Source: Pseudotabrizicola algicola (GTDB lineage Bacteria > Pseudomonadota > Alphaproteobacteria > Rhodobacterales > Rhodobacteraceae). From it: a stretch of 62,245 nucleotides of DNA. The translations under genes were made by a program, and so were the position numbers. Below are positions 2,869 through 55,544 of this stretch, piece after piece. Location: positions 1-62,245 of the forward strand of contig NZ_JAAIKE010000012.1 of the NCBI RefSeq assembly GCF_010915705.1. Reading direction: 5' to 3'. How positions within the stretch are numbered: position 1 is the stretch's first letter; every line of letters starts with the position of its first letter. Under the pieces are notes generated by a model. That model was not told where the DNA came from. It was given only the letters and a program-made list of their open reading frames with translations, and did not search any database.

Positions 2869-3087
2869 TTACTTGAAACGATAGTTGATACGGCCCTTCG
2901 ACAGGTCGTAGGGGGTCATTTCCACCTGCACCTTGTCGCCAGCCAGAACGCGGATGCGGTTCTTGCGCATCTTGCCTGCCATCACCGCGATCAATTCATG
3001 GCCATTGTCGAGTTCAACCTTGAATGTCGCATTCGGCAGGAGTTCCTTGACGACACCGGGGAATTCGAGAATGTCTTCCTTGGCCAT
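2869..3087 (-). CDS. infA: Translation initiation factor IF-1
   Basis: A 72-residue single OB-fold protein with the near-invariant IF-1 sequence ([51 protein letters not shown]). IF-1 binds the A site of the 30S subunit and cooperates with IF-2 and IF-3 during initiation. The ATG at 3087 follows TGGAGTGACC, a good ribosome binding site; the longer frame to 3129 adds residues absent from the family. It is first gene of a four-gene leftward operon and has its own promoter at 3138-3166. Confidence 0.97.
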
Positions 3088-3137: not shown

Positions 3138-3166
3138 CATATGCGCCCGATTCTCTGGGTTTTCAA
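3138..3166 (-). promoter_or_regulatory. Putative infA promoter
   Basis: On the minus strand TTGAAA (3166-3161) and CATATG (3143-3138) are spaced 17 bases apart, a good sigma-70 arrangement, predicting a leader of about 45 bases before the infA ATG. The structured repeat at 3189-3264 lies upstream of this promoter and therefore outside the infA transcript. Confidence 0.5.
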
Positions 3167-3188
3167 GAGGATTCTGCCCCGAGGGCGC

Positions 3189-3264
3189 GCTCATCGGCCT
3201 TTACAGGCCTCTTCGCTGGCCCGGACTACGGCCAGCGCGATGACGCCCGTAAGGGCGGAAGAGC
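3189..3264. repeat. Pseudoknot-like repeated element, copy 1
   Basis: On the plus strand the order is TCATCG (3191-3196), hairpin GGCCT-TTAC-AGGCC (3196-3209), CTCTTC (3209-3214), hairpin CGCTGGCC/GGCCAGCG (3214-3237), CGATGA (3238-3243), hairpin GCCC-GTAA-GGGC (3245-3256), GAAGAG (3258-3263). TCATCG pairs with CGATGA and CTCTTC with GAAGAG in crossing order, which would make an H-type pseudoknot stacked on hairpins. The second copy at 53558-53615 keeps both crossing pairs while the hairpin stems change with compensation. The strand is not determined because the reverse complement has an equivalent arrangement. It lies between infA and the upstream hydrolase gene. Confidence 0.6.
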
Positions 3265-3276
3265 CCCCGGGGCAGA

Positions 3277-4146
3277 TCACCGCGCCAGCCGCGCCCCCTG
3301 TTCGTCCCAGTGCAGGTGGTTCAGCACGCGCCCGTTACGCCGCACCTCGCGGATCGCCGCAAGGCTGACCCCGGCCAAGGCCCAGCCCGGCGCGTTCAGC
3401 GGCGTTTCCGCCAGAATGCCGGTGGGCGGAAAGCCAAGATCGGGCGGGCCATAGATCGCGCCGGAGCCCACGTTTTCATCCACCGCCGGGCAGAAATCGC
3501 ACAAGCCCACCGTGGGCGATTGCGCGACAACGCATTGGTTTTCGAGGGCCCGCGCCATTGCCCCGATCCGCACCCGCGTGAACCCGGCCAGACTGTCGGT
3601 GCAGGACGGGGCCAGCAACACCTCGGCCCCCTGCTCTACCAGATGCCGCGCCAGCAGCGGAAACTCGCTGTCATAGCAGATGATCACCCCGATCCGCCCC
3701 AGATCTGTGTCAAACGGCGCAAGGCCGCGCCCTGCCACCACATCCCACTCTTCCCGCTCGAACCGCGTCATGATCTGCTTGTCCTGATGTCCGATGATCC
3801 CGTCGGGCCCATAGAGCGTGGCGCGGTTCACCGGGCGCGCGCCTGCAAAGAACGGCCGCGACGCCCCGAGGATCAGGCAATCATGCCGCCGCGCCAGTTC
3901 CAGATGCAGCGCATCGGTTGCCGCGCCATGCCGCGACACCTCGTGCAGCGCGGCTTCCAGATCCCCCGCCACCGCCCGCCCGCCAAGGCTGGAGAGTTCC
4001 ATCGAGCCATATTCGGGAAAGACCAGCAGCTTGGCCCCCTGCCCCGCCGCATCGGCCACCCAGGCGCCCAGCTTGGCGGCGTGATCGTCGAAATGGTCGA
4101 ACCACGTCAGATCATAGGCGGCGGCGGCCAGACCGAACCCGCTCAC
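3277..4146 (-). CDS. Carbon-nitrogen hydrolase (nitrilase superfamily)
   Basis: A 289-residue enzyme with the complete Glu-Lys-Cys triad of the nitrilase superfamily: Glu45 in LLVFPEYGSME, Lys123 in GHQDKQIMTRFEREEW, and the nucleophile Cys157 in GVIICYDSEFP. These enzymes hydrolyse nitriles, amides or N-carbamyl groups; the substrate cannot be read from sequence, but the length and FEREEW segment suit the cytosolic amidohydrolases often paired with a GNAT domain. The start is GTG at 4146, overlapping the stop of the upstream acetyltransferase gene as GTGA. It is the last gene of a tightly coupled three-gene leftward operon (SnoaL-like, GNAT, hydrolase), which suggests one shared small-molecule pathway. 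Confidence 0.88.
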   Translation of the reverse strand: MSGFGLAAAAYDLTWFDHFDDHAAKLGAWVADAAGQGAKLLVFPEYGSMELSSLGGRAVAGDLEAALHEVSRHGAATDALHLELARRHDCLILGASRPFFAGARPVNRATLYGPDGIIGHQDKQIMTRFEREEWDVVAGRGLAPFDTDLGRIGVIICYDSEFPLLARHLVEQGAEVLLAPSCTDSLAGFTRVRIGAMARALENQCVVAQSPTVGLCDFCPAVDENVGSGAIYGPPDLGFPPTGILAETPLNAPGWALAGVSLAAIREVRRNGRVLNHLHWDEQGARLAR

Positions 4147-19300: not shown

Positions 19301-19462
19301 TCAGCCGCGATTGCCGCGCATCGTCTGCAGCAGGTCCCACCCCGCCAGCGCCACCGTGAACCCGATGACCACCATCAGGTCCACCCGCTGCACCTTCCAC
19401 ACAAGGATGCCCAGAAAGGCCACGAAAATCGCGAAGGCCAGCACGGCCAGGATATTGTTCAT
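19301..19462 (-). CDS. Small membrane protein (53 aa) at the end of the TRAP operon
   Basis: A 53-residue protein starting four bases after the amidase stop. It has two hydrophobic helices, ILAVLAFAIFVAFLGILVW and LMVVIGFTVALAGWDLL, separated by the positively charged turn KVQRVD, and a short basic tail. The ribosome binding site GAAGGGACC overlaps the end of the amidase gene, so the gene is co-transcribed and probably coupled with it. Function unknown. Its position after DctP-DctQ-DctM-amidase suggests an accessory role in the transport system, which is inference. Confidence 0.75.
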   Translation of the reverse strand: MNNILAVLAFAIFVAFLGILVWKVQRVDLMVVIGFTVALAGWDLLQTMRGNRG

Positions 19463-19466
19463 CGGA

Positions 19467-20825
19467 TCAGGTCCCTTCATTCGGCGAGAGGATATGCTGG
19501 GTCAACCAGCGCGCGGTCCGCAGCAGCCGGGCATCATCGCCGCGCCGCCCCACAAGCTGCACGCCCATCGGCAGGCCGTTCCCGGCGGTGAACAGCGGCA
19601 GCGTGATCGCAGGCACCCCGGCCAGCGTCCACAGCCCGTTGAACACGGGCGAGCCGGTGGAGTCGAGCCCCGCCGGCGCAGGTCCGCAGGCAGCGGGACA
19701 GAGGAGGGCATCGCAGCGCTCGAACACCTGATCCAGCGCGGCATTCATCACCACCCGCCAGTCCTGCGCCGCGATATAGTCGCGCGCCAGCACCGCCTTG
19801 CCCTCGTCCAGCGCGGCCCGCAGCGGGGCCGACATCAGATCCCGCCCCCGCCGCTCCAGCCCGAAGTAACATTTGGCCATCTCGGCGAAGTTGATGGCCT
19901 GACGCGCGGCGGCCAGACCCTCGAACCCTGCCAGCGGCACCTCGAAGCAATCCGGCAGGGTCGCAGCCAGTTCTGCCATCGCATCCAGCATTTCAGGCTC
20001 TGCCTGATCCTGCTCGGGCAGACGCACAAGGGCAAAGGCCGGGGTGACGGGGGCCTTGGCCATCGCCACGTCGAGAAGTCGCGGCACCGGCACCGGAGCG
20101 GTCGCGGCATCGGCCGGGTCATGGCCCGTCAGCACCTCGGCCAGCAGGGCGCAATCCTCGACCGATTTGCCGAAGACCCCGATCGTATCCAGAAACGGCG
20201 ACTGCATCAGCACGCCGGTGCGCGGGATCAGCCCGAAGCTGGGCTTGAAGCCGACCACGCCGCAAAAGCTGGCGGGGCGGATCACCGACCCGCCGGTCTG
20301 TGTTCCGATGGCCAAGGGAACCATGCCTGCCGCAACGGCGGCGGCAGAGCCTTGGCTCGACCCGCCCGGCGTATGGCCGGGGTTATGCGGGTTGCGCGTC
20401 TTGCCCGGATGCATGAAGGCACATTCCGTCGTCACAGTCTTGCCCATGACAATCGCGCCCGAGGCCCGCAGGCGGCTGACCAGCCAAGCATCCTCGGACG
20501 GAACCCGCCCCGCGTCTATCGGGGTGCCATTGGCGGTCGGAATACCCTTGGTGTCGATGATATCCTTCAGACCGACCGGAAGCCCGTGCAAGGGACCAAT
20601 CGGCATGCCTGCGAGCCGGCGCTTGTCCAGGGCGCGGGCCTGCTCCAGCGCATGATCACCATCCAGCCAGGCCCAGGCCTGAACCTCGGGCTCGCGGGCG
20701 GCGATCCGGGCGAGGCAAGCCTCGACCAGTTCCACCGCACGCACCGCACCCGAAGCGAGCCGGTCCCGCAGGGTGACCGCATCCAACGCCAGCAGCGCCT
20801 CGCCCTGATCAGCGCGAAGGCCCAT
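19467..20825 (-). CDS. Amidase (amidase signature family)
   Basis: A 452-residue amidase-signature enzyme. The Ser-cisSer-Lys triad is intact: Lys87 in GLPVGLKDIID, Ser156 in HTPGGSSQGSAAAVAAG, and the nucleophile Ser180 in IGTQTGGSVIRPASF. These enzymes hydrolyse amide bonds in compounds from small carboxamides to glutamyl-tRNA; this sequence resembles catabolic amidases rather than GatA. The ATG at 20825 lies inside the end of the dctM gene with GGAGG six bases upstream, so it is translationally coupled to the transporter, implying that the TRAP system imports an amide or a precursor of one. The enzyme has no signal peptide and acts in the cytoplasm. Confidence 0.92.
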   Translation of the reverse strand: MGLRADQGEALLALDAVTLRDRLASGAVRAVELVEACLARIAAREPEVQAWAWLDGDHALEQARALDKRRLAGMPIGPLHGLPVGLKDIIDTKGIPTANGTPIDAGRVPSEDAWLVSRLRASGAIVMGKTVTTECAFMHPGKTRNPHNPGHTPGGSSQGSAAAVAAGMVPLAIGTQTGGSVIRPASFCGVVGFKPSFGLIPRTGVLMQSPFLDTIGVFGKSVEDCALLAEVLTGHDPADAATAPVPVPRLLDVAMAKAPVTPAFALVRLPEQDQAEPEMLDAMAELAATLPDCFEVPLAGFEGLAAARQAINFAEMAKCYFGLERRGRDLMSAPLRAALDEGKAVLARDYIAAQDWRVVMNAALDQVFERCDALLCPAACGPAPAGLDSTGSPVFNGLWTLAGVPAITLPLFTAGNGLPMGVQLVGRRGDDARLLRTARWLTQHILSPNEGT

Positions 20826-53041: not shown

Positions 53042-53482
53042 TCAGGACCCGACCAGCGTCCGCATCCGCCGCAGCGCCAGCAGATAGCCCTCGGTGCCAA
53101 ATCCCGCGATCACTCCCTCGGCCCGCAGCGACACATAGGAATGATGCCGGAACGTCTCGCGCTTGTGCACATTCGAGATGTGGACCTCCAGCACCGGCCC
53201 TTCAAAGGCGTTCAGCGCATCCAGAATCGCCACCGACGTATGGGTGAACGCACCGGGGTTGATGATGACCCCCGCCGCTTCCGCACGGGCCTCATGGATC
53301 CAGTCGATCAGAACCCCTTCATGGTTCGACTGGTAAAAGCGCAGCCCCAAGCCCAGATCGCCCGCCAGCGCGGCACAGGATGCCGCCACATCGTCCAGCG
53401 TTTCACGCCCGTAAATCTCGGGCTGGCGCAGTCCCAGCAGGTTCAGGTTGGGACCGTTCAGAATGTAGATGGGCTTTGCCAT
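53042..53482 (-). CDS. aroQ: 3-dehydroquinate dehydratase, type II
   Basis: A 146-residue flavodoxin-fold type II dehydroquinase of the shikimate pathway, which dehydrates 3-dehydroquinate to 3-dehydroshikimate. Characteristic are [20 protein letters not shown] (with the catalytic Tyr/Arg loop), [34 protein letters not shown] and [20 protein letters not shown]. The enzyme is a dodecamer in known cases. It is preceded by the structured repeat copy 2. The ATG at 53482 follows GAAGAGGATATC. Confidence 0.96.
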
Positions 53483-53557: not shown

Positions 53558-53615
53558 GCTCATCGGGCCTGATGGCCCTCTTCGCCAGCGATGACAGCCG
53601 TCAGGCTGGAAGAGC
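53558..53615. repeat. Pseudoknot-like repeated element, copy 2
   Basis: Plus-strand order: TCATCG (53560-53565), hairpin GGGCC-TGAT-GGCCC (53565-53578), CTCTTC (53578-53583), GCCAG linker, CGATGA (53589-53594), hairpin AGCC-GTCA-GGCT (53596-53607), GAAGAG (53609-53614). The crossing pairs are identical to copy 1 (3191-3263), both hairpin stems differ by compensatory changes, and the middle hairpin of copy 1 is missing. It sits between the metF terminator and aroQ. Confidence 0.6.
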
Positions 53616-53624
53616 CCCCCGGGC

Positions 53625-53661
53625 AAAAAAAGAGGCCCGAGCCACGCGGGGCAAGGGCCTC
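53625..53661 (-). terminator. Intrinsic terminator of metF
   Basis: On the minus strand GAGGCCC (53661-53655), a 16-base loop, GGGCCTC (53638-53632) and T7 (53631-53625) form a classical Rho-independent terminator 24 bases after the metF stop. It separates metF from the structured element and aroQ. Confidence 0.85.
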
Positions 53662-53684
53662 AGGGAGACGCCATCAGCCTGATG

Positions 53685-54551
53685 TCAGGCAACTTTCTCC
53701 AGCACCACCTCGGGCTGGATGCCCAGCGCGCGCACCACTTCACGCGTCAGGTGCGGACGGTTCAGCGTGTAGAAGTGCAAATCCTGCACCCCACCCTCCA
53801 GCAGCCTGTCGCAAAGCTGGGTGCAATGCGCCAAGGCATAAAGCTCCTCGCGCCCGTCACGCGCGGCGGTGGTAAAGGCCTCGTCCAGCCGCGCCGGCAC
53901 ATGCGATCCGCAGCGCTGCGCAAATTTCTTCGCCCCCGCCCAGCTGGTGATCGGCAAAATGCCCGGTATGATCGGCGCGGTGATGCCCTCTTTCACGCAC
54001 AGATCGCGGAAGCGGAAAAACGTATCGGCATCGAAGAAGAACTGCGTGATCGCACTCGACGCACCGGCATCGATCTTGCGCTTGAGCCAGCGCACATCGG
54101 CCAGCGTATCGGCAGCATCCGGGTGCGGCTCGGGATAGGCCCCGACGCGCAGCGTGAACCTGCCCGTCGCCGCCAGCGCCTCGATCAACTCCACCGACGA
54201 GGCAAAGCCGTCAGGATGCGCGGTAAACCGCTCCGCCCCCTTGGGCGCATCGCCGCGCAGCGCAACGATCTCGGTCACGCCCGCCTCGGCATAGGCTGCC
54301 GCAATCTCCAGCGTCTCCGCCTTCGTCGCATCGACGCAGGTCAGATGCGCCGCCACGTTCAGCCCGTAATTCTTGCCGATCGCCGTCACTGCCTCATGGG
54401 TCAGCTTGCGGGTGGTGCCGCCCGCCCCATAGGTGACCGAGACAAACTCCGGCTGCATCGGGGCCAGCGCCTGCACGGTTTCCCAAAGACGGAAGGACGC
54501 ATCCAGCGTCTGGGGCGGGAAGAACTCGAACGAAATGCGCGGCGTTGCCAT
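53685..54551 (-). CDS. metF: Methylenetetrahydrofolate reductase
   Basis: A 288-residue TIM-barrel flavoenzyme reducing 5,10-methylene-THF to 5-methyl-THF for methionine synthesis. Motifs include ISFEFFPPQT (catalytic Glu region), FVSVTYGAGGTTRKLT, AAHLTCVDATKAETL, ALRGDAPKGAERF and AITQFFFDADTFFRF. The ATG at 54551 is preceded by GGAGACGACC; the much longer open frame to 55601 runs antisense through the LysR gene and is not used. It is divergent from the LysR-type regulator gene. Confidence 0.96.
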   Translation of the reverse strand: MATPRISFEFFPPQTLDASFRLWETVQALAPMQPEFVSVTYGAGGTTRKLTHEAVTAIGKNYGLNVAAHLTCVDATKAETLEIAAAYAEAGVTEIVALRGDAPKGAERFTAHPDGFASSVELIEALAATGRFTLRVGAYPEPHPDAADTLADVRWLKRKIDAGASSAITQFFFDADTFFRFRDLCVKEGITAPIIPGILPITSWAGAKKFAQRCGSHVPARLDEAFTTAARDGREELYALAHCTQLCDRLLEGGVQDLHFYTLNRPHLTREVVRALGIQPEVVLEKVA

Positions 54552-54594
54552 GGTCGTCTCCTTTTGATGCCCCCTTGTCGCAGATTCGGCGATG

Positions 54595-54607
54595 TGAGAC
54601 AAATTCA
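54595..54607. promoter_or_regulatory. Putative MetR-type binding site
   Basis: TGAGACAAATTCA matches the MetR consensus TGAANNNNNTTCA at all but one position and lies between the divergent metF and LysR-type genes, 44 bases from the metF start codon. A second overlapping TTCAT...ATGAT dyad follows. Binding is inferred. Confidence 0.5.
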
Positions 54608-54638
54608 TAAACTTCACGATGATCTTGTGGTAAACCTC

Positions 54639-55544
54639 ATGTATATCGAACTCCGCCACCTGCGCACCATCCGAGCGATTCATCAGGCGGGCGGCCTTGC
54701 CCGCGCCGCCGACCTGCTCAACATGACGCAATCGGCGCTGTCGCATCAGGTCGCCAATCTGGAAGATCAGGCGGGGATGGAGCTTTTCGTGCGCCGCTCC
54801 AAACCCATGCGCCTCTCGGCGGCAGGCATCCGCATGCTGCGCGCCGCCGACCGTATCCTGCCGGAAATCGAGCTGATGGAGGAAGAATTCCGCGCCCTGC
54901 GCTCGGGCAAGACGGGGCGGCTGCACATCGCCATCCAGTGCCATGCCTGCTTTGACTGGCTGTTCCCGGTGCTGGAGCTTTTCCGGCAGGCCTGGCCCGA
55001 GGTCGATGTCGACATCCGCGCCGGCCTCGCCTTCGACAGCTTTCCGGCCCTCTTGCGCGAAGAGGTCGATCTGGTCATCACCTCCAACCCCGAACCGCTG
55101 CCGGGCCTCACCTACAACCCGCTCTTCGACTACCACCCGGTTTTCCTTGCCTCCGCGCAAAACCCGCTGGCCACCAAGGAGGTCATCACAGCCGAGGACT
55201 TCCGCGATCAGGTGCTCATCACCTACCCTGTCGGCCGCGACAAACTCGATGTCTTCACCGAACTGCTCACCCCCGCCAAGGTCGAACCGCGCGGGCAGCG
55301 TCCGGTGGAACTGACCGCCGTGATCCTGATGCTGGTCGGCTCCAACCGCGGTGTCGCGGTGTTGCCCGACTGGGTGCTGCGCGACATCAAGACCAATGCC
55401 GATTACATCACCCGCCCCCTCGGCCCCGAAACCGTGACCAAACGCCTCTTCGCCGCGACCCGCGAAGAAGACGCCGCAAAACCCTTCATGGCGCACTTCC
55501 TGCGCCTGTGCCGGTCCGAACCTGTCAAACTGCAACGCGGCTGA
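54639..55544 (+). CDS. LysR-family transcriptional regulator, MetR-like
   Basis: A 301-residue LysR regulator. The N-terminal winged helix (ELRHLRTIRAIHQAGGLARAADLLNMTQSALSHQVANLEDQAGMELF) strongly resembles MetR, as does the effector domain start GRLHIAIQCHACFDWLFPVLELFRQAWPEVDVDI; the CHACFDWL motif is a MetR hallmark. MetR uses homocysteine as coactivator for metE/metF-type genes. Divergent from metF, so it presumably activates metF and represses itself. The ATG at 54639 is the first codon matching the family. Confidence 0.9.
   Translation: MYIELRHLRTIRAIHQAGGLARAADLLNMTQSALSHQVANLEDQAGMELFVRRSKPMRLSAAGIRMLRAADRILPEIELMEEEFRALRSGKTGRLHIAIQCHACFDWLFPVLELFRQAWPEVDVDIRAGLAFDSFPALLREEVDLVITSNPEPLPGLTYNPLFDYHPVFLASAQNPLATKEVITAEDFRDQVLITYPVGRDKLDVFTELLTPAKVEPRGQRPVELTAVILMLVGSNRGVAVLPDWVLRDIKTNADYITRPLGPETVTKRLFAATREEDAAKPFMAHFLRLCRSEPVKLQRG

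Follow-up and report, generated by a model that had tools for sequence, protein, structure and literature searches.

A dispersed repeat of inverted GA-hairpins in Rhodobacteraceae and its candidate RHH-TraI_middle partner protein

Introduction

The window analysed here, a stretch of 62,245 nt, is one entire contig of the genome of Pseudotabrizicola algicola (4.49 Mb, 29 contigs; G000 below). The same four hexamers occur in the same order at two places in it: TCATCG (3191-3196), CTCTTC (3209-3214), CGATGA (3238-3243) and GAAGAG (3258-3263) in copy 1, and again in copy 2 with starts at 53560, 53578, 53589 and 53609. The gapped succession TCATCG..CTCTTC..CGATGA matched twice in the window and never in 100 dinucleotide shuffles of it. 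The words form two interleaved complementary pairs, and the locus therefore raises the question of whether each copy is a single structure with crossing helices, as the original prediction had it, or something else. Here we present a description of the repeat and of a gene associated with it. We put at slightly less than an even chance the reading of each copy as a single doublet belonging to a dispersed REPIN-like repeat whose partner is not a RAYT but a protein joining a ribbon-helix-helix (RHH) and a TraI_middle-like domain. RAYTs are the best-known gene family driving and co-evolving with small dispersed palindromes; an unrelated second partner, if true, would mean that alliances of protein and palindrome arose more than once.

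Features of the window copies

Both interleaved word pairs were confirmed letter by letter in the two copies, and so were the stem changes between them (GGCCT/AGGCC to GGGCC/GGCCC and GCCC/GGGC to AGCC/GGCT), which are truly compensatory, and the GTAA loop. What had been described as one structure of two helices with inserted hairpins is indeed a structured repeat, but it consists of two inverted copies of one hairpin, termed arms below (Table 1). The base that each inserted hairpin was said to share with the flanking helix is present, but as the closing pair of that local hairpin. A covariance model built from 50 arms, the four window arms included, matched these four at E ≤ 1 with 43.7-46.9 bits, the lowest value being that of arm a of copy 1. 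RNA folding of this arm gave the GA-hairpin structure at -11.6 kcal/mol, and arm b of the same copy folded at -13.6 kcal/mol.

In line with the statement that no known family was recognised, the window had no Rfam match at gathering score apart from two tRNAs, and a permissive Rfam scan of positions 3150-3300 returned five microRNA families, all far under their cut-offs. A hammerhead-like core was dropped after inspection by eye. A terminator-like hairpin with a T-run was seen by eye on the minus strand at about 53625-53662, between the stop codon of the PF02219 gene and copy 2.

Table 1. Positions of the two repeat copies and of their neighbouring genes in the window
Feature	Position	Strand	Remarks
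infA (initiation factor IF-1), downstream of copy 1	2869..3087	-	PF01176, E 2.9e-25
Copy 1 arm a, GA-hairpin	3189..3216	-	N-N' = A-T, stem GGCCT/AGGCC, loop GTAA
Copy 1 spacer	3217..3236	.	own hairpin possible (TGGCC...GGCCA)
Copy 1 arm b, GA-hairpin	3237..3264	+	N-N' = T-A, stem GCCC/GGGC, loop GTAA
Carbon-nitrogen hydrolase gene	3277..4146	-	PF00795; stop codon 12 nt from copy 1
Class II dehydroquinase (aroQ-type) gene, downstream of copy 2	53042..53482	-	PF01220
Copy 2 arm a, GA-hairpin	53558..53585	-	N-N' = A-T; pattern scan and model match
Copy 2 spacer, 2 nt	53586-53587		
Copy 2 arm b, GA-hairpin	53588..53615	+	N-N' = T-A; pattern scan and model match
Methylenetetrahydrofolate reductase-domain gene, upstream of copy 2	53685..55496	-	PF02219

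Anatomy and covariation of the arm

A search with the half-element GCGATGAC..GGAAGAGC yielded single arms at other places of G000 and in two further genera, in which the matched positions covary (T..A, A..T, G..C). These single arms with their matched letter changes led to the arm model GC-GA-N-GA-S-stem-loop-stem-S'-GA-N'-GA-GC, a hairpin of 28-30 nt. In its lower stem G faces A at four steps, and the two tandem G.A motifs flank a Watson-Crick N-N' pair; some arms measure 30 nt, their upper stem containing an extra step, GA/GA or GA/AA. The ends are GCGA and GAGC (CCGA/GAGG in 2 of the 50 aligned arms), and the loops are mostly of the form G..A (55/63). The flanks of 127 arms from G000, G166 and G117 show a weak CA upstream and a G downstream in 95/127.

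Among these 127 arms, which were selected by a rule that ignores N-N', this pair is Watson-Crick in 108, compared with a mean of 41 and a maximum of 58 in 2000 shuffles. Covariation statistics were obtained from 50 hand-chosen distinct 28-nt arms, in which 96.8% of cells are paired (71.1% in shuffles, 24-41% when slid) and 89 both-side changes occur (28.6 in shuffles). Two of the five measures were not clear of shuffles, namely further pair types (13 vs. 12.6) and the number of pairs with a both-side change (6 vs. 5.0, with 34 of 500 shuffles as high). N-N' is A-U in 24 of the 50 arms, U-A in 11, G-C in 6 and C-G in 1, the other 8 being mainly G-G. Stem complementarity could also be maintained, in the absence of selection, by mutational correction of palindromes; such a process should, however, remove the G.A steps, which persist.

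A hairpin with two tandem G.A motifs is a possible recognition site in either DNA or RNA. The RNA energy model recovers the arm fold for single arms, whereas DNA parameters give the inner stem only. The tandem GA steps, the G..A loops and the sense arm inside the partner gene (see below) favour RNA as the folded strand; the arm on the opposite strand, which is found in codirectional contexts too, and the relaxase-like domain of the partner favour DNA.

Arrangement of arms in doublets

Neighbouring arms within 40 nt of each other stand in -+ order in 33 of 36 cases, an inverted arrangement that places one GA-hairpin on each DNA strand in every doublet. An H-type pseudoknot RNA with the crossing helices TCATCG/CGATGA and CTCTTC/GAAGAG, as the original prediction proposed from the perfect 6-bp crossing complementarity of both window copies, is very improbable: the TCATCG/CGATGA helix does appear in the DNA-parameter fold of the plus strand of copy 1 (ensemble frequency 0.02), but the other whole-element DNA and RNA folds lack it, the RNA minimum-energy fold of both copies and strands is a long nested hairpin (from a program that cannot predict pseudoknots), in some doublets of G000 the partner of an A-T arm is a G-C or G-G arm, covariation across elements tracks the local hairpin, and the crossing match over 33 inverted pairs is at chance (11 vs. 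8.9 expected, p 0.25). In the 33 close -+ pairs both crossing positions match in 9 (7.4 expected, p 0.30) and the nested match, likewise at chance, is found in 11 (11.8 expected), so that a reading of the doublets as one long nested hairpin was rejected as well; complementarity of the outer flanks of the 33 pairs was not above shuffles. The arms are accordingly regarded as independent local hairpins, and the perfect crossing words of the window follow from the combination of an A-T and a T-A arm in each copy. Spacers vary from element to element and thus give no hint that whole doublets were copied recently. A different repeat, containing GGGGATATTT and AAAGGAGAAA, was seen between arms in G166 (L254:3063-3146 and L268:3103-3206).

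Distribution and genomic placement

The REP-like element that the original prediction had also allowed for was borne out in so far as the repeat is dispersed. The covariance-model search in relatives, proposed at the same time, found further homologues: of 295 genomes sampled from the taxonomic family, 49 were matched by the arm model at E ≤ 0.01 in a survey scoring at most 25 candidates per genome. The distribution is patchy, and 16 of the 295 had at least 10 arm hits. Pattern searches returned 45 hits in G000 (18 with a control pattern), 54 in G166 (3) and 141 in G117 (61). In a pattern scan of named genomes, which fixes one arm variant and is therefore no survey, 117 stretches were among the matches listed; the sole carriers of paired arms among these were Pseudogemmobacter humi (L045) and Rhodobacter sp. 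YIM 73028 (L090, second arm degenerate). A phage origin was considered and rejected: three pattern matches in viral contigs were judged unrelated from their sequence, and tblastn found no relative of the partner protein in viral contigs. In G123:C151:35-1028 arm hits recur every 483 bases, which would fit tandem repetition of an arm-holding unit.

Arms lie mostly between genes: 101 of 127 arm midpoints are outside called genes, and 17 of 88 elements (three genomes) are inside them. Intergenic gaps of at least 30 nt that contain arms are convergent in 32 cases, codirectional in 35 and divergent in 2, compared with 27, 163 and 82 for gaps without arms at the same loci. The distance from stop codon to element is 5-9 nt in 34/100 and ranges from -16 to 251; gene starts are rough, as gene calling relied on a simple script based on codon usage.

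This placement suits a pure 3'-end RNA element, that is, a bidirectional terminator or a stabiliser of mRNA ends, which would need no special partner and whose link to a gene would reflect shared ancestry. The explanation is unlikely on the whole, although it is also helped by the tandem GA steps and G..A loops, which suit RNA, and by the RNA fold of the hairpin. No U-run follows the arms of either window copy (a statement about these two copies), copy 2 comes after a separate terminator-like hairpin, and both arms occur in codirectional contexts too. The arms inside the partner gene, their synonymous constraint and the matching of arm subtypes (see below) are left unexplained by it.

Places of elements were compared between G000, G166 and G117, the elements of the last having been read in part. 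One element shares both neighbouring genes and three share one neighbour, one element is intragenic in one genome but next to that gene in the other, and two pairs are located within orthologous genes. Within the genus of G000, 6 of 15 loci in species that lack the partner gene but have arm hits match arm places of G000. The few shared places and these matching loci indicate inheritance of some places and turnover of others. At the infA place of copy 1, two gene-less species retain remnants of 24 and 22 bits (44-47 bits in the window genome), and other relatives, G004 included, have nothing above about 11 bits there; a search for an empty site that would reveal insertion ends met remnants or unalignable sequence in the infA region of relatives.

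Several individual places were noted in addition. A doublet lies between the D-3-phosphoglycerate dehydrogenase gene and its upstream neighbour in two genera (L218:3065-3121 in G000, L274:2952-3012 in G166). An arm on the opposite strand lies inside orthologous RNA methyltransferase (PF04452) ORFs (L229:3039-3066 in G000, L247:3021-3048 in G166), in both genera within a poorly aligned stretch of the gene. Gene order breaks beside the element of L440 (G004), the left flank of which resembles another G000 contig (L231) and the right flank window positions 19331-20741.

The partner gene and its in-gene arms

Pairs in the reverse, +- order were found only twice in G000 and G166, in both cases inside orthologous ORFs (68% identity). 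The G000 ORF (C23:377458-377889) encodes a protein of 144 amino acids, in which the in-gene doublet occupies the linker joining an RHH and a TraI_middle-like domain. The arm DNA is nearly identical between the two genera, and the remainder of the gene is not. A Pfam search of the partner returned RHH-type and TraI_middle matches, with no relaxase catalytic domain and no Y1 domain; 15 of the 19 homologues searched matched TraI_middle, with a best E of 3.1e-7, the G000 protein (P0001) lying below the curated cut-off. A PDB profile search linked the N-terminus weakly to RHH proteins, and its matches for the C-terminal half (de novo designed proteins and an acyltransferase) are taken as chance. 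One homologue, with 32% identity, lies on plasmid pC of Cereibacter sphaeroides 2.4.1 and is annotated as a hypothetical protein. In nine partner loci read, neither a relaxase nor a transposase was noticed beside the gene.

Homologues were found in 62/295 genomes at E ≤ 1e-6. Of the 30 best homologues read, 19 have the sense arm at the matching place (18 if the position window misses the truncated match L340) and 11 do not; the in-gene pair is complete in 9/30 if one core mismatch is tolerated and in 12/30 if two are. More distant homologues have neither in-gene arm. In 17 distinct sense arms 99.3% of cells are paired, with 7 both-side changes (1.4 in shuffles) located at three pairs and four pairs invariant. 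At identical amino acids the same codon is used in 1759/2347 cases (0.75) within the element and in 3813/8527 (0.45) outside it, the sequence pairs compared not being independent; inside the element Arg is encoded by AGG in 16/19 and Asp by GAT in 17/19. From this codon comparison, the codons of the in-gene element appear constrained beyond the needs of the amino acids.

The in-gene arms could instead be an old insertion in a host gene, kept by the protein sequence and unrelated, as far as the protein is concerned, to the dispersed arms. Conservation of the linker residues R-A-D-E-R-L speaks for such an origin, as does the occurrence of single arms within the RNA methyltransferase ORFs of two genera. 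We consider it rather improbable, given that the codon constraint exceeds what the amino acids require, that the in-gene stems vary in a compensatory way, and that the gene and the dispersed arms co-occur and match in subtype.

Association of gene and arms

Of the 49 arm-positive genomes 26 have a homologue at E ≤ 1e-6, compared with 36 of the 246 arm-negative ones; conversely, arms occur in 26 of 62 genomes with such a homologue and in 23 of 233 without, the in-gene arm itself being included in a genome's count. Arms were found in 20 of 27 homologue genomes at E ≤ 1e-20 and in 16/16 at E ≤ 1e-30, a cut chosen post hoc, the next genome (G257, 3.8e-30) having no arm hit. Eight genomes have at least 4 arm hits and no homologue at E ≤ 1e-6 (G018, G125, G151, G199, G262, G274, G295 and G299), and a profile search added partial homologue matches in G274 and G299 only. 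G334, with 102 pattern hits (control 18), has divergent homologues only, none with a detected in-gene arm, and may harbour a diverged form of the system.

Arm subtype was defined by the second dinucleotide (GA, GC or GT) of hairpin-supported dispersed arms and compared with the class of the in-gene arm in genomes other than G000, G166 and G117, where arms had been sought with GA fixed. The two agree in G304 (19/19, GC), G035 (24/24, GC), G293 (5/6, GC), G163 (6/6, GA) and G283 (5/6, GA), and also in the small numbers of arms available from G127 (2, GC), G309 (2, GT) and G261 (3, GT). A single arm departs from the gene in G293 (GG) and another in G283 (GC), and so does the sole arm read from G120 (GG, with a GC gene). 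This matching is the strongest sign of what may be a direct link between gene and arms.

Within the genus, the two gene-positive species have 32 (G000) and 11 (G004) model hits, compared with 0-7 in the fourteen gene-less species (4, 0, 1, 0, 7, 0, 2, 0, 0, 0, 0, 0, 0, 1; exact p 0.008, kinship ignored); completeness is below 90% for five of the gene-less assemblies, and the G004 assembly has 8% contamination. G004 has the partner gene and lacks an intact infA element.

The preferred reading, a REPIN-like repeat with an RHH-TraI_middle partner, joins what was documented by comparing genomes (the hairpin with its GA motifs, the doublets, the 3'-end placement, the in-gene arms with constrained codons, the co-occurrence and the subtype matching) with a putative role of the protein, which would bind the folded strand, control itself through its own gene and either cause the spread of the arms or profit from it. 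In such a system the protein would recognise the folded GA-hairpin, restrain its expression via the site in its own gene and occupy dispersed sites at gene 3' ends; sites would spread in gene-carrying genomes and decay after gene loss, as REPs do with RAYTs. More tentatively, the protein may read the GA-mismatch hairpin with the copy in its own gene as both autoregulatory site and seed, from which gene-end sites would have been built and diversified, protein and sites switching subtype (GA, GC, GT) jointly. The in-gene arms, together with a genus in which 2 of 16 species have the gene, lend themselves to simple experiments on binding and on what causes spread and decay.

Comparison with known systems

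Among open-licence papers none was recognised as describing this repeat. According to two accounts (PMC2817692, PMC3116915), REP/REPIN-RAYT systems consist of inverted hairpin doublets that are mostly extragenic and whose abundance and subtype follow one gene. The arms resemble them in being short imperfect-palindrome hairpins in inverted doublets, mostly outside genes and in tens per genome, with copy number and subtype that go with one gene and few copies without it. They differ in having tandem G.A steps in the stem. REPs carry a conserved 5' GTAG-type tetranucleotide, which was not seen in the flanks of the 127 arms.

A classical RAYT-driven REP/REPIN element would account for the likenesses just listed, but is improbable. 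The Y1 transposase domain PF01797 was found in 30/295 genomes, with G000, G117, G166 and G334 not among them, and is not associated with arms (3/49 arm-positive vs. 27/246 arm-negative genomes); the partner joins RHH and TraI_middle-like domains with no Y1 domain found, and arms lie within its ORF instead of flanking it. Because the RAYT test failed despite the resemblance, the repeat is not filed as REPIN-RAYT.

Relaxosomes act on hairpin DNA, and the partner resembles components of conjugative relaxosomes (TraI_middle, RHH accessory proteins) in its domains; unlike relaxosome and oriT systems, it has no detected relaxase catalytic domain. Autogenously regulated mRNA-binding proteins have a structured site inside the regulator's own gene, as is found here, but here the second arm, where present, is a GA-hairpin on the antisense strand, and there are dozens of dispersed sites. 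Bidirectional intrinsic terminators are hairpins between convergent genes, a position that the arms share; unlike terminators, the arms have no U-run (window copies) and form two separate hairpins on opposite strands. The attC sites of integrons, as described in PMC8632094, have the consensus end RYYYAAC; in place of such an end, the arms have GCGA and GAGC.
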